From the NCBI RefSeq assembly GCF_023336935.1, contig NZ_JAMBLR010000001.1, positions 372,001-436,000 of the forward strand: a DNA stretch of 64,000 nt, in the 5' to 3' direction. The position numbers and the translations under genes were made by a program. How positions within the stretch are numbered: position 1 is the stretch's first letter; the number at the start of each line of letters is the position of its first letter. Positions 12,509-63,676 of this stretch are shown here, one piece after another. This stretch comes from Phascolarctobacterium sp. ET69. Lineage in GTDB: Bacteria; Bacillota; Negativicutes; Acidaminococcales; Acidaminococcaceae. The notes under the pieces were generated by a model. That model did not search any database, was not told the origin of the DNA, and saw nothing but the letters and a program-made list of their open reading frames with translations.

Positions 12509-12765
12509 AAAAAAATAAAGTCTCATCCCAAAGGGACGAGACTGTATAACCCGTGGTACCACCCTAATGACGCAGAATTTACGCGCCACTCTCAACGCCG
12601 TTAACGTGCGTTACCCCGTCCGTACTTACTGCTGTTTCTGTACGGAAGCTCCAAAGTGATTTTCACCGGCCTTCTGTCCTGTTCCGGCTTGCACTGTCCC
12701 GGAATCGCTGCGCTGCTTCGTGCCGGCTACTGTCTTTATCATAGCCTGTAAGAATATTTAAAAAC
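12509..12765 (-). promoter_or_regulatory. T-box leader (isoleucine) upstream of ileS
   Basis: Reading the minus strand: stem I region with GACAGTAGCC, the AGCGA-type bulge and GTGCAAG loop; a specifier context GAAAATCACTTTGGAG with ATC at 12660-12658; the conserved antiterminator sequence GGGTGGTACCACGG at 12551-12565; then the terminator AGTCTCGTCCC / GGGATGAGACT (12519-12543) followed by TTATTTTTTT. Uncharged tRNA(Ile) should stabilise the antiterminator and switch ileS on. The start is inferred from the promoter. Confidence 0.93.
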
Positions 12766-42837: not shown

Positions 42838-43620
42838 TTATTGAACTTTATGTACTGCTTCCGCCATTTCTTTTACGTAATCGCTAACGGGCTGTACGCA
42901 GTCCGTACCGTATTTGCCAACTATTTTTACAACTGCGCTGCCAACAATGGCGCCATCACTTACTGCCGCCATTTCTTCGGCCTGCTTAGGCGTTGCTATG
43001 CCAAAACCAACTGCCGCCGGCACATTCGTTGCCTGGCGTATTTTTTCCGTCATAGCGGCAATGTCGGTGGTAATGTCGCTGCGCACGCCTGTAACACCAA
43101 GTGAAGAAACAATATACACATACCCTTCCGCATCTTTGGCAATCATTTTAATGCGCTCGTCAGAGGTCGGCGCTACCAGCGGAATTAAATCCACGCCGTA
43201 CTTACGGCAAAGCTCTGACAGCGGCGCTTTTTCTTCGTAAGGCACGTCCGGTACAATAATTCCGTCCAGCCCAACGCTTTGGCAGTTTGCCAGAAATTTT
43301 TCCGTGCCATAGGTAAAAATGGGGTTGATATAAGTTAAAAACACCAGCGGCACATCCGTTTTTGTGCGTACGTTTTTTAACATGGCAAAAATTTTATCGG
43401 TTGTGGTACCTGCGCTTAAAGCACGGATGTTGGCTGCCTGAATTACTTCGCCCTCCGCCACCGGGTCGGAAAAAGGTATGCCCAGTTCAACAATATCCGC
43501 ACCGGCGTTTGCCATGGCAACAATAAGCTGCTCGGTAACATCAAGGTTCGGGTCGCCTGCCGTTATAAAAGGTATGAAACATTTACGCTGTTTTTTGAAA
43601 GCTGCTGCTATTTTACTCAT
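42838..43620 (-). CDS. trpA: Tryptophan synthase alpha chain
   Basis: Cleaves indole-3-glycerol phosphate to indole. The 260-residue barrel has the catalytic Glu in [14 protein letters not shown], the YINPIFTYG stretch, and [16 protein letters not shown] near the C-terminus. The start at 43620 (MSKIAAAF) overlaps the end of trpB (ATGAGTAA) by 8 bases, which supports it over an upstream in-frame ATG at 43647. Last gene of the trp operon. Confidence 0.96.
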
Positions 43621-44806
43621 GCAAATCCACCCCCATGTATCTTGCAATGGCTGCTACGTCTTTATCGCCGCGGCCGGAAACATTTACTACGATAATTTTA
43701 TCTTTCGGCAAAGTAGGCGCCAGCTTTTGTGCATAGGCAATAGCGTGTGCGCTTTCGATAGCCGGAATAATGCCTTCTGTTCTGGAAAGATAGCTGAACG
43801 CCGCTACCGCTTCGTCGTCAGTTGCCGATACATACTGTGCACGCCCGCTATCATAAAGAGCCGCGTGTTCAGGCCCTATGCCGGGGTAATCAAGCCCTGC
43901 CGAAATGCTGTATACCGGTGCAATCTGGCCGTATTCATCCTGCAAAAAGTAAGATTTCATGCCGTGGAAAATGCCGAGGCTGCCGCGGGCAATGGTTGCC
44001 GCCGTCTGCGCCGTATTAACGCCGCGCCCTGCTGCTTCCACGCCGATAAGCTGTACTTCCTTGTCGGGAATGAAATCATAAAACAGGCCCATGGCGTTAG
44101 AGCCGCCGCCCACGCAGGCCATTACAATATCCGGCAGGCGGCCTTCTTTTTCAAGAATCTGGGCTTTCACTTCCTTGCCGATAACGCTCTGAAAATCGCG
44201 TACCATTTCCGGATACGGGTGCGGACCCATAACGGAACCAAGCACATAATAGGTGTCGTTTACATTGGCAGTCCACTGGCGCAGCGCTTCGTTAACGGCA
44301 TCTTTAAGGGTTTTGGTGCCGCTTTCCACCGCTACTACCTTTGCCCCCAAAAGTTCCATGCGGAATACGTTCAGAGCCTGACGTTCGGTATCTTCGCGCC
44401 CCATATAAACCGTACATTCCATATCCATCAGCGCAGCCGCCGTTGCCGTTGCCACGCCGTGCTGGCCTGCGCCTGTTTCCGCAAGCACACGCTTTTTGCC
44501 CATTTTTTTGGCCAGCAGCACCTGCCCCAGCACGTTGTTTATTTTATGCGAGCCGGTATGGTTCAGGTCTTCGCGCTTTAAATAAATTTTAGCGCCGCCA
44601 AGGTCTTTGGTCATCTTTTCGGCATAATACAAAAGTGAAGGGCGGTTGGCATATTCATGAAAAAGTTCCTGCAATTCTTTGTTAAACTGCGGGTCGTTTT
44701 TATAATATTCATAAGCCTTTTCAAGCTCTATAACCGCGTGCATCAATGTTTCCGGTATATACTGCCCGCCGTGTATTCCGTATCTTCCTTTAGTCATCAT
44801 ATTCAT
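43613..44806 (-). CDS. trpB: Tryptophan synthase beta chain
   Basis: PLP enzyme condensing indole and serine. The 397-residue protein has the PLP lysine motif [16 protein letters not shown], the channel segment [15 protein letters not shown], the phosphate loop [10 protein letters not shown] and the late [11 protein letters not shown]. The ATG at 44806 forms an ATGA overlap with the trpF stop; ATGs at 44800 and 44797 are also possible given the AAAGG spacing. Directly upstream of trpA. Confidence 0.96.
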
Positions 44807-45423
44807 CCTTTCACCTGTTTTATAAAATTTTTAATTTTAACTTCATCCTTACTGCCGCCGCTTTCCACTCCGCCGCTTACGTCAACGGCGTAAGGCTTTA
44901 AGCCTTTTAATGCACTGCGCACATTTCCGGCATTCAGCCCGCCGGCTAAAAAGTAAGGTTTATTTATTTTAACGCCCTTTAAAAGCTGCGTGTCAAACTG
45001 CCTGCCCGTTCCGCCGTATGAGGCTGTGCTGTAAGTATCGAACAAAAAATACTCGCAGTTGTAAAACGCGGCTTTTTTTATGTCTGCTTCTTCCCTTACG
45101 CGCACGGCTTTAATAATTGGCAGCGTGCATATTTTGCGCAGTTCCGCAATATAGGCGTTGGTTTCATCTCCGTGCAGCTGCACCATGTTTATTATGCCAA
45201 GTTCGGCAGCCGCGGCAATTTCCTCCGGCGGGGCATTTACAAAAACCCCAATGCTCTTTATTTTTTTATTCAGTTTTGCTTTCAGGATGCGTGCCGTTAT
45301 TAAACTTACATACCGTTTGCTTAACGGATAAAACACAAAGCCGGTAAAATCAGGCTTTTGCCTGTTTACCAATTCCACGTCCTGCAAAGTTTTTATGCCG
45401 CAAATTTTTACCTTTACCATCAC
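44803..45423 (-). CDS. trpF: Phosphoribosylanthranilate isomerase
   Basis: Amadori isomerisation of phosphoribosylanthranilate. The 206-residue barrel has the N-terminal [15 protein letters not shown] with the catalytic cysteine, [37 protein letters not shown] at the C-terminus. Overlaps trpC by 4 bases and trpB by 4 bases. Confidence 0.95.
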
Positions 45424-46199
45424 TCAACACCTGCCAGTTGTTTCAGCGCACCTGCTGCATCACCGCTGCGCATCAGCGTTTCACCTATTAATACAGCGTC
45501 TGCACCGGCGTTTTGCAGTTTTATAATATCATTGCGCGTTTTTATGCCGCTTTCCGCCACAAAAGTTATGCCCGGCGGCACCAGCTTTTTTAAACGCAGG
45601 CTGTTGTTAAAATCAACCGTAAAATCCTTTAAGTTGCGGTTATTAACGCCTATAATTTCCGCACCGGCTTTCAGCGCCGTTTCCAGCTCCGCTTCATCAT
45701 GCACTTCCGTTAAAACATCAAGCCCAATACTTTTTGCCGCGGCAAGATATTCGCGCAAAACGCTTTCTTCCAAAAGTGCCGTTATTAAAAGTATGGCGTC
45801 AGCGCCGATAAGTTTTGCTTCGTAAATCTGCGCTTCGTGTACGGTAAAATCCTTACGCAGAACAGGAAGCGAAATGCTTTGGCTGATTGCCTTTAAATAT
45901 TCGTTGCTGCCTAAAAAATACTGCGGTTCCGTAAGGCACGACACGGCTGCCGCACCAGCTTTTTCGTAAGCCCCGGCCTGCAAAACCGGGTTAAAATCCT
46001 TTGCGATAAGCCCTTTGAAAGGCGAGGCTTTTTTTACTTCGCAGATAAAAGAAAGCCCCTCCTTTTTTAACGCCTGCCCAAACCCGCGGTTTACCTGCGG
46101 CAGCGCTTCCGCCTCACGGCGCAAAGCATTTAAACCATATTTTTTTATCAGTTCACCGGCACGTTCTTTAGATGCCGCCGCTAAAGTATCAAGTATCAT
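45420..46199 (-). CDS. trpC: Indole-3-glycerol phosphate synthase
   Basis: Ring-closing decarboxylation of carboxyphenylamino-deoxyribulose phosphate. The 259-residue barrel has the catalytic lysine motif CEVKKASPFKGLI, VLRKDFTVHEAQIYEAKLIGADAILLI region, GVNNRNLKDF and VAESGIKTRNDI. It starts 7 bases after trpD ends. Confidence 0.96.
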   Translation of the reverse strand: MILDTLAAASKERAGELIKKYGLNALRREAEALPQVNRGFGQALKKEGLSFICEVKKASPFKGLIAKDFNPVLQAGAYEKAGAAAVSCLTEPQYFLGSNEYLKAISQSISLPVLRKDFTVHEAQIYEAKLIGADAILLITALLEESVLREYLAAAKSIGLDVLTEVHDEAELETALKAGAEIIGVNNRNLKDFTVDFNNSLRLKKLVPPGITFVAESGIKTRNDIIKLQNAGADAVLIGETLMRSGDAAGALKQLAGVE

Positions 46200-46206
46200 A
46201 AAAGCC

Positions 46207-47214
46207 TCACATATTGCTTAATTTTACAAGCTGCTGCAATTTTTTGTAAGCCCTGCCGCTGTCAATGGTTTCTTCTGCCAGAGCTGCACATTCCTTAATG
46301 CTGCCTTTGCCGCCGAGATATAAACTTACGGCACTGTTTAAAACAACTGCATCGCGTTTGCTGCCGCGTTCCGTGCCGTTTAAAATATTCGTGGTTATCT
46401 GCGCGTTTTCCTGTGCATCTCCGCCTACAAGGTCGGCTTTGGAGCAGCGTTTAAAGCCCAAATCAGCAGGGTCGAAAATATATTCCGTAACTTTGCCGTT
46501 AATAATTTCGGCCATTGTGTTGGTTGAAGAAACCGTTACTTCGTCAAGCCCGTCGTTGCCGTAAACCACTATGCCGCGTTTAACGCCGAGGTTTGAAAGC
46601 ACGCGCGCCAGCGGCAGCACCAGTTCCTTCTGGTAAACGCCCAAAAGCTGCAAACTTGCAAAGGCCGGGTTTGCCAAAGGCCCTATGATATTAAAAATGG
46701 TTCTGATGCCGATTTCCTTGCGCACCGGGCCTGCATAACGCATTGAAGCGTGGCAGGACTGCGCGAACAAAAAGCAAAGGTTAATTTTTTGCAGCAGTTC
46801 TTCGTTTTTCTCTGCCGGCAAATCTATTTTTACACCCAAAGCTTCAAGTACATCGGCGGCGCCACTTTTGCTTGATACGCTGCGGTTGCCGTGCTTTGCC
46901 ACCGGCTGCCCGGCCGCACTTATTACAAAGGCACTGGTTGTGGATATATTAAAAGTATTCGCGCAATCGCCGCCTGTGCCTACTATATCAAGAACGTCAC
47001 CCTGAGTATGGATGCGGCTGCATTTTTCGCGCAGCACCTGCGCACAGGCGGTAATTTCGTCTATTGTTTCACCTTTCATGCGCATGGCGGTAATAAAAGC
47101 CGCAATCTGGGCATTGGTTGCGCCGCCGCTCATAATCTGGTCAAAGGCTTCGCGTGTTTCTGTTCCTGCAAGGTTCTGCCCTGCTGCAAGTTTGGCAATT
47201 GCTGTGTTAATCAT
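46207..47214 (-). CDS. trpD: Anthranilate phosphoribosyltransferase
   Basis: Joins anthranilate and PRPP. The 335-residue protein has the PRPP-binding GTGGDCANTFNIST motif, the HGNRSVSSKSGAADVLEALG loop and RTIFNIIGPLANPA. With trpE and trpG missing just upstream, anthranilate would have to be supplied from outside or by enzymes elsewhere in the genome. It is the first intact gene of the operon. Confidence 0.96.
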   Translation of the reverse strand: MINTAIAKLAAGQNLAGTETREAFDQIMSGGATNAQIAAFITAMRMKGETIDEITACAQVLREKCSRIHTQGDVLDIVGTGGDCANTFNISTTSAFVISAAGQPVAKHGNRSVSSKSGAADVLEALGVKIDLPAEKNEELLQKINLCFLFAQSCHASMRYAGPVRKEIGIRTIFNIIGPLANPAFASLQLLGVYQKELVLPLARVLSNLGVKRGIVVYGNDGLDEVTVSSTNTMAEIINGKVTEYIFDPADLGFKRCSKADLVGGDAQENAQITTNILNGTERGSKRDAVVLNSAVSLYLGGKGSIKECAALAEETIDSGRAYKKLQQLVKLSNM

Positions 47215-47234: not shown

Positions 47235-47386
47235 TCAGTCACTCAAAAAATTTGCAAGTATTTTCATGCCGTCCGGCGTCATTACCGATTCCGCGTTACC
47301 ATATCGGCAAAACATTCCTTTGCAACCGGTACAACCATATAATCAGCGGCATAGGCTTTTACTTCATCCAAACTTAAATTCAACAT
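47235..47386 (-). pseudogene. trpE-trpG deletion remnant
   Basis: An ATG at 47386 with a strong GGGGGG site opens a 34-codon frame that starts MLNLSLDEVKAYAADYMVV then PVAKECFADMVT, matching the N-terminus of anthranilate synthase component I (TrpE), then stops at 47282. Overlapping it in another frame, ESVMTPDGMKILANFLSD ends at a TGA (47237-47235), matching the C-terminus of TrpG (consensus HPES-TxxGxxILxNF). The fusion point is near 47300. So trpE and trpG (about 2 kb) have been deleted between these points, leaving both ends. Confidence 0.85.
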
Positions 47387-47429: not shown

Positions 47430-47725
47430 TAAATAAAAAAGCCTGTCCCTGTAAATATACAAGGACAGGCAATAATGCTATAAACCTGCGGTACCACCTT
47501 GATTCGCGGAAGATTCCGCGCACTTTAGCAGAGTGCCAACACACCCCTCGCCCGTAACGCTGGCGCTGCGTTGCAGAATACTCACAGAAAAACCTGCTTT
47601 GACTGCACCCTCAACGGTCCATTTATCAGACTGCATTTCTATCCGTTCCCAGCAACCGGACTCTCTGTGAGCGCATTTTCTGACTTGATCTCCGTCTCGT
47701 AGGTTTAGTGGTAATTATTAACTTG
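47430..47725 (-). promoter_or_regulatory. T-box leader (tryptophan) of the trp operon
   Basis: Minus-strand leader with stem I sequence, a specifier context GATAAATGGACCGTTGAGG with the Trp codon TGG at 47621-47619, the antiterminator element AAGGTGGTACCGCAGG (47500-47485), and the terminator GCCTGTCC / GGACAGGC (47470-47441) followed by TTTTTT. Uncharged tRNA(Trp) should allow read-through into trp genes. The leader is complete even though trpEG are gone. Confidence 0.93.
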
Positions 47726-63464: not shown

Positions 63465-63676
63465 AAAATAAAGCAACTCAGCTGACCTGGTCTTCGCCCC
63501 CACACCCGCCTGCTGGGAGGTTCGCTCCTAAGCAACATGCTCCCCACTACTGCTCCTCTCGCTTTTCGCGGCAGGACTTACTTCTAAGCTGCGCCGTGCT
63601 CACAGTAATTTTTACTGCTTACGTGGATCGTTTTGCCCGCAACTGGCATCGACTTTCAACCACAGACCTGAGCTGC
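63465..63676 (-). ncRNA. Probable structured non-coding RNA of about 210 nt, family not identified
   Basis: No plausible protein covers this stretch. A promoter (-10 at 63688-63683) predicts transcription to begin at 63676, exactly at the first base of GCAGCTCAG (63676-63668), which pairs with CTGAGTTGC (63481-63473) to close the whole element; a T-rich tail (TTTATTTT) follows. Inside: CAGTAA/TTACTG (63617-63603), TGCT..GGAG/CTCC..AGCA (63534-63511), TGCC/GGCA and GCGCAG/CTG-CGC hairpins. Purine-rich single-stranded parts remain. Size resembles 6S or raiA-type RNAs but no canonical motif was recognised. It does not look like RNase P, SRP RNA or tmRNA. Confidence 0.65.

Follow-up and report, generated by a model that had tools for sequence, protein, structure and literature searches.

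The tryptophan operon of Phascolarctobacterium sp. ET69 has lost the genes for its first step, trpE and trpG, and carries the scar of their deletion between a tryptophan T-box leader and an intact trpD. The best explanation, and one that we consider likely, is a lasting, anthranilate-fed pathway that is still under tryptophan control. The operon lies on the minus strand of the window, i.e., the whole stretch of 64,000 nucleotides that was analyzed, and its features are as follows:

47458..47709, minus strand: tryptophan T-box leader RF00230, specifier UGG (cmscan, 83.6 bits, E 1.8e-18)
47431..47470, minus strand: terminator-like hairpin and T run at the T-box 3' end (by reading of the sequence, GCCTGTCCTTG...CAGGGACAGGCTTTTTT)
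47294..47386, minus strand: trpE remnant, the ATG and first 31 codons (identity to G006 TrpE; shuffles)
47282..47386, minus strand: scar-made ORF of 34 codons, consisting of the trpE start, three out-of-frame codons and a stop (frame 0 ends TRNR*)
47292..47294, minus strand: deletion junction, uncertain by 1-2 bases (end of the TrpE frame, start of the TrpG frame)
47235..47291, minus strand: trpG remnant, the last 18 codons and stop, in a frame other than that of the trpE remnant (TrpG-end alignments; shuffles)
46207..47214, minus strand: trpD, anthranilate phosphoribosyltransferase, intact (PF00591, E 2.1e-91; PF02885; TIGR01245, E 2.0e-120)
45420..46199, minus strand: trpC, indole-3-glycerol phosphate synthase (PF00218, E 1.2e-82)
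44803..45423, minus strand: trpF, phosphoribosylanthranilate isomerase (PF00697, E 1.5e-44)
43613..44806, minus strand: trpB, tryptophan synthase beta (PF00291, E 8e-45)
42838..43647, minus strand: trpA, tryptophan synthase alpha (PF00290, E 6.2e-90)

The trpE-trpG scar and the retained operon

The minus strand from 47386 to 47294 holds 31 trpE codons, reading MLNLSLDEVKAYAADYMVVPVAKECFADMVT, with 74% identity to the first 31 TrpE residues in G006 (tblastn, E 6.7e-9), a related genome with an intact trp operon that served as the reference for the scar comparison. The trpG remnant follows in another frame of the same strand (47291 to 47238, with the stop running to 47235), reads ESVMTPDGMKILANFLSD, and aligns with the end of G006 TrpG, ESIMTPDGLSILKNFLAI, as well as with the TrpG ends of G010, G014, and G009. 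Both matches to the G006 proteins were tested against 1000 dinucleotide shuffles each. The match of the TrpE remnant scored 119 (shuffle maximum, 51) and that of the TrpG remnant 67 (shuffle maximum, 36); since none of the 1000 shuffles reached the score in either case, neither scar match is a chance effect. The gene order of G006 is trpE-trpG-trpD-trpC-trpF-trpB-trpA, its leader aligns to the window's T-box, and its trpE and trpD start codons are 2057 bases apart vs. 172 in Phascolarctobacterium sp. ET69. G006 is the sister of the genus in one tree, and its placement is left open in a tree of RpoB and AroC. A preliminary description of this DNA had read the region below the Trp T-box as a scar of some 31 TrpE residues followed, in a different frame, by some 18 of TrpG. 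The G006 matches and the shuffles confirm that reading for 47235-47386 (minus strand) and place the join at 47292-47294, and the comparison with a relative that has intact trpE-trpG before trpD, whose TrpE and TrpG the scar peptides match, bears it out.

Downstream of the scar, trpD, trpC, trpF, trpB, and trpA are open frames with matches to their Pfam families, which, together with the RF00230 match, supports the earlier statement that trpDCFBA and the T-box had been kept. The GTGGD, KHGNR, and DE columns of TrpD are invariant across 11 TrpD proteins of the family, and the window's TrpB is 95-96% identical to TrpB in five congeners.

The leader is a full-length RF00230 match, and its 83.6 bits lie below the Rfam gathering score of 93, at which the scan does not list it. 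Its specifier is read as UGG, in a AAATGGACC context common to the congeners; the TGG context and AAGGTGGTACCGC upstream of the trp genes are likewise common to them. As few leaders came up when the gathering score was applied (none in 11 loci; three in 13, namely L166, L207, and L083), short stretches were scanned for T-boxes by E-value. A T-box was then seen immediately upstream of trpD (of trpB in G003) in all 20 of the trpE-less loci fetched; 19 of the 20 score below the gathering score, all have E <= 6.6e-12, and the UGG context is exact in 19, with a variant in G068. The T-box before trpD in G009, the sole locus tested that has trpEG behind trpA, scores 93.4 bits. A DNA search of the window's genome for another close copy of this leader, with 18 of 77 first-look candidates scored, gave nothing beyond the operon and 25 bases that match its trpD part. 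The window also holds a second T-box at 12529-12751 (minus strand; 109.1 bits, above the gathering score), directly upstream of a 927-aa ORF that we take to be isoleucyl-tRNA synthetase, an ordinary arrangement, and a raiA RNA at 63473-63676 (minus strand; 200.2 bits).

Anthranilate synthase in the whole genome

The genome of Phascolarctobacterium sp. ET69 consists of 11 contigs (1.88 Mb; 1,884,175 bases), is listed with a completeness of 100% and a contamination of 0.08, and has the scar inside a 539 kb contig. A search for PF00425 (Chorismate_bind) gave no match in the 1.88 Mb, and the same search was positive in 14 of 14 control genomes; there is therefore no TrpE, PabB, or isochorismate synthase of that family. 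The TrpG/PabA profile TIGR00566 found just two matches in the genome, which score 66 and 44.7 bits where the cut-off is 121.05, and these glutamine amidotransferase (GATase) matches sit in ORFs of 366 and 526 aa that, going by length, would be carA and guaA. The earlier proposal that the strain cannot make anthranilate by this route is thus upheld genome-wide: anthranilate synthase is gone, and neither trpE/trpG nor pabA/pabB was found over cut-off. Since aroC, for chorismate synthase, is present in all six genomes of the genus that were sampled, chorismate can be made. Kynureninase was rejected as a source of anthranilate: TIGR01814 had no match in the window's genome and none over cut-off in any of 59 family genomes, 11 of which gave weak, sub-threshold matches. 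Anthranilate is therefore probably of outside origin. A search of a phage collection gave no match.

A side observation concerns p-aminobenzoate. Of the 31 family genomes that bear PF00425, 30 have one match only, which in the loci inspected is the operon's trpE. PabB is probably missing widely in the family, and p-aminobenzoate may be of outside origin too.

Junctions and shrinkage in congeners

The window's genome (G000) was compared with five sampled congeners (G001-G005). PF00425 was found in none of these six genomes, trpD in five, and a tryptophan-sensing T-box in all six. Four congeners (G001, G002, G004, and G005) have the leader joined straight to trpD, with a ribosome site present and no scar. 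The fifth, G003, has the leader joined to trpB; trpD, trpC, and trpF are gone from this locus, leaving trpBA only, and no trpD was found anywhere in the G003 genome. In the RpoB and AroC tree, the genus (SH-aLRT 100) divides into G000 and its sister group, the five congeners (SH-aLRT 86). This pattern fits either a single old loss, after which the scar was trimmed away in the congeners, or two separate deletions. Since the clean junctions of G001, G002, G004, and G005 can be aligned, the differences among these four genomes most likely arose after the loss.

Selection on the genes that remain

We compared dN/dS between species with clean junctions by the NG86 and YN00 methods, with aroC as the comparison gene. 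For G001-G005, NG86 gave 0.144 for trpD, 0.184 for trpC, 0.209 for trpF, 0.047 for trpB, 0.165 for trpA, and 0.138 for aroC; the values for G002-G004 were 0.053, 0.162, 0.102, 0.011, 0.081, and 0.129, respectively. YN00 gave 0.115 (trpD), 0.240 (trpC), 0.237 (trpF), and 0.112 (aroC) for G001-G005, and 0.023, 0.290, 0.140, and 0.106 for G002-G004. With values of at most 0.29 by either method, trpD, trpC, and trpF are under purifying selection among the species that share the loss. Selection on trpD is as strong as on aroC, and that on trpC and trpF perhaps less so; the excess of trpC and trpF over aroC by YN00 may reflect some relaxation.

Distribution of the loss in the family and class

We examined every one of the 59 available family genomes. 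PF00425 occurs in 31 of them (22/37 and 9/22), and one search, which took in G000, found it in 41 of 61 genomes. trpD was over cut-off in 52 of the 59, and 21 of these 52 were without PF00425; in one of the 21, G007, trpG runs into a contig end and the genome may just be incomplete. Going by rounded figures, completeness is 90% or more and contamination 5% or less in ten of the 21. A draw of 150 genomes from the class, 26 of them in the family and 124 outside, showed trpD without PF00425 in 6/26 vs. 1/124 (G180), respectively (Fisher p 1e-4). The species tree held 53 of the 59 family genomes, six with TrpE being left out, and states were counted on 46 rows, the exclusions being four genomes of unknown state and the three of genus g15, in which neither TrpE nor TrpD was found. 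Presence or absence of TrpE changes seven times on this tree, and five times without six genomes that are <87% complete, counts that give no direction to the changes.

Full-length matches to all five genes were found in 14 of 20 trpE-less genomes, and G076 adds one with a shorter trpC match. Among the remaining five, G067 is without trpB in the locus, G074 meets a contig end, and G004, G079, and G082 have broken frames in trpA, trpB, and trpD, respectively, which are decay or draft errors. A different truncation is seen in G012 (L216:3403-5939, also L114), where trpE is whole and trpG, cut to ~25 codons, runs in a different frame into trpD at around codon 5; in the congener G025, trpG is complete.

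We also surveyed the best 80 of 586 named trpD loci, 17 of which were without a TrpE match, some of them being short contigs. Ten of the 17 were checked genome-wide (L186, L146, L148, L152, L158, L178, and L179 were left out); the domain lay elsewhere in eight genomes and was absent for L125 and L166. At L125:7200-8001, from Candidatus Mediterraneibacter intestinavium (Lachnospiraceae), a UGG T-box motif precedes trpDCFBA in a genome without PF00425. The TrpG remnant here is clear (residues 142-186, E 1e-15) and the TrpE start, of 16 residues, is only suggestive, with 8 of 300 shuffled peptides scoring as high; the locus is probably a parallel of the window's scar. At L166:4523-9775, from an uncultured Lachnospiraceae bacterium, a T-box is followed by trpD-C-F-B-A with no adjacent trpE, and PF00425 was not found in the 4.1 Mb genome.

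Apparent regain of trpE

A TrpE tree took in 20 of the 31 TrpE-bearing family genomes. Eleven of these 20 proteins, that of G006 included, form one clade. The TrpE of G009 and five g13 genomes fall within clostridial TrpE, near Papillibacter, and a second clostridial group unites G014, G026, and G035 with G051, a member of the class from outside the family. A single clade for the 20 family TrpE was rejected by the AU test (dlnL 209, p 2.7e-53), for which the group was picked after the first tree had been seen and 22 of 101 rows were dropped (one duplicate and 21 named or linked loci). Gene order differs as well: trpE and trpG stand behind trpA in G009, G017, G033, G077, and G080, on a contig separate from that of trpD in the case of trpE in G075, and, as trpEG, ahead of trpD in G014, G026, and G035.

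By trpC and trpF (support 0.87 and 0.63, respectively), G009 and g13 group with the window's genus; by trpD, g13 does not, and the trpB and trpA clades are weak; the trp operons of G009 and g13 are mosaics. In the TrpG tree, one family clade was not rejected (p 0.53), a tree too weak to decide. Since the TrpG tree and the g13 trpD lend it no support, the case for regain rests on TrpE and on the gene order of operons that are mosaics in any case. The nine sampled relatives with a clostridial-type trpE, five of which have it behind trpA, look as if they had regained the gene. Loss of the native pair and later gain of another fits these data, and so does a gain that preceded the loss.

UbiD, UbiX, and TrpB2 genes in relatives

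Several trpE-less g13 genomes have further genes after trpA. These are ubiD-ubiX, an unnamed gene of 129 aa, and trpB2 in G028, G081, and G079, with the trpB2 of G081 in two pieces; ubiD-ubiX in G078; and trpB2 alone in G072, G073, G076, and G082. The sequence of G074 ends before this region. None of these genes was found in the loci of the trpE-bearing G017, G033, G077, and G080. In the trpE-less G036 (genus g17), ubiX, a relative of the 129-aa gene, and ubiD are preceded by a T-box of their own whose specifier is UGG, and a T-box of this kind precedes trpB2 in G007. The module is not exclusive to trpE-less genomes, as the trpE-bearing G075 has ubiX and the small gene just upstream of trpEG. 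The UbiD/UbiX loci noted in trpE-less relatives are:

L088:10564-14001
L203:8015-11678
L210:8726-12001
L202:1997-4059
L091:3317-5964

Three of these five also have a TrpB-like enzyme (TIGR01415).

The best PDB chain for the UbiD of G028 and of G078 was AnInD, 7p9q (E 1.6e-102 and 3.6e-109, respectively). Passages of the AnInD paper describe an indole-3-carboxylic acid decarboxylase whose activity is severely cut by a change of Asp169 (PMC8988006), and by our reading of the alignment this residue is matched by an Asp in G078 UbiD. In the ~45% of the window's genome that was read (contig C1 minus its last 4 kb and contig C2, 505 kb long, as far as 310 kb; in all 853,000 of 1,884,175 bases, counted with overlaps and the window), the UbiD, UbiX, and 129-aa queries had no match, the TrpB2 query matched only trpB, and the trpE query matched only the scar.

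It is possible, and we put this forward tentatively, that the family's tryptophan regulon has interchangeable entry points, namely an anthranilate feed, a regained trpE-trpG, or UbiD-UbiX-TrpB2. trpEG would be lost repeatedly, after which the T-box-controlled core would run on anthranilate, acquire a clostridial-type trpE and trpG anew behind trpA, or, in some relatives, be joined by UbiD-UbiX-TrpB2, placed in the operon or behind a tryptophan T-box of its own. Judging from the resemblance to AnInD, the latter enzymes would decarboxylate indole-3-carboxylate to indole and then join indole to serine. A literature search found no description of such a route to tryptophan.

Explanations for an operon without its first step

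A deletion took most of trpE and trpG out of a T-box-trpEGDCFBA operon like that of G006 and left the scar behind. As far as profile searches can tell, there is no other enzyme of the TrpE/PabB type, and the known route from chorismate to anthranilate is closed to the cell. The remainder of the operon has been kept below an intact tryptophan T-box, with purifying selection in the congeners that share the loss. Retention of trpDCFBA, selection, and the T-box together make anthranilate uptake most likely. The cell would import anthranilate made by neighbors or the host, and TrpD, TrpF, TrpC, and TrpBA would convert it to tryptophan whenever uncharged tRNA-Trp builds up. In the longer term, the trees and gene orders suggest that this state recurs in the family, that it may shrink to trpBA, as in G003, and that arrival of a clostridial-type trpE, along with trpG, may reverse the loss.

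The preliminary description had suggested life on anthranilate or indole from neighbors, or else early decay. Anthranilate is the best reading, as a stable and recurrent state of the lineage. Since trpD, trpF, and trpC act before indole, salvage of indole by TrpB alone would not need them, and indole alone leaves their retention unexplained; indole use does fit the trpBA-only congener G003. Early decay is not supported, as the loss is genus-wide and dN/dS of trpD, trpC, and trpF is well under 1 among the species sharing it. It is also unlikely that the operon is decaying in the broader sense that loss of trpEG made the pathway useless, with the rest persisting by inertia and tryptophan being imported. 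The further loss of trpDCF in G003, the broken trp frames of three other trpE-less drafts, the three g15 genomes with neither TrpE nor TrpD, and the YN00 values of trpC and trpF above that of aroC are what decay would leave. However, a dN/dS of no more than 0.29 is far under 1, all five genes are full-length in most of the trpE-less genomes (14/20), and the T-box persists, newly connected to trpD and followed by a ribosome site.

We regard as improbable, more so than decay, that an unrelated enzyme still makes anthranilate in the cell and that the pathway is complete. Displacement would also produce repeated loss of precisely the first step, and UbiD/UbiX genes do lie in or beside the trp regulon of relatives. 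Nevertheless, the searches for PF00425 and for a kynureninase above its cut-off were both negative, the UbiD resembles an indole-3-carboxylate decarboxylase and would give indole, not anthranilate, and UbiD, UbiX, and TrpB2 were not seen in the ~45% of the genome read. Finally, although collapse is possible in short-read assemblies and several relatives are fragmented drafts, an assembly or binning artefact that hides trpEG, as had earlier been considered, is scarcely credible given that five separately assembled congeners share the absence with other junctions, and that a genome listed as 100% complete (0.08 contamination) has no PF00425 and carries the join within a 539 kb contig.

The label "auxotroph" is thereby recast as a claim, open to testing, about a metabolite that is traded. 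If the first committed step, and it only, has been dropped time and again in a family of gut-type anaerobes, anthranilate must be reliably available there as a shared good. Together with the clean junctions and G003, which keeps trpBA only, the scar records step by step how a biosynthetic operon shrinks from the top with its tRNA-sensing switch retained; to judge from the foreign trpE, such a loss may be reversible.

Comparison with known systems

The gene content itself, trpABCDF without trpEG, is already known. Among human gut genomes, variant A3 (38 genomes) is described as having TrpA, B, C, D, and F without TrpEG, and anthranilate salvage was proposed for it (Ashniev et al., 2022; PMC9026213). 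The window's genome has the same composition, with trpA, B, C, D, and F present and trpE and trpG absent. The passages on variant A3 contain no scar, operon wiring, selection test, loss count, or regain, and neither Phascolarctobacterium nor Negativicutes appears in the main text (PMC9026213). A literature search, which excluded most subscription papers, found no further description of trpE-less trpDCFBA in free-living bacteria.

Chlamydia, as described in parts of PMC10242142, has trpR-trpDCFBA-kynU-prsA operons, with trpBA remnants in C. trachomatis. The likeness lies in the lost first step, the downstream genes under tryptophan control, and a trpBA stage like that of G003. In contrast, kynU makes anthranilate from kynurenine in Chlamydia (PMC10242142), whereas the window's genome has no kynureninase over cut-off, and control is by the repressor TrpR in the former and by a T-box leader in the latter. 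New to this analysis are the scar and the clean re-wiring, the recurrent loss with its apparent rescue, and, in relatives, a possible second entry by UbiD/UbiX/TrpB2. Insect endosymbionts offer a third comparison: in the account given in passages of PMC5702781, the pathway is split between trpEG of Buchnera and trpABCD of Serratia, so that one partner makes anthranilate and another finishes tryptophan, much as proposed here. Those partners, however, are a fixed pair of symbionts in one insect, whereas Phascolarctobacterium sp. ET69 appears to be a gut-type bacterium, with a genome of 1.88 Mb.
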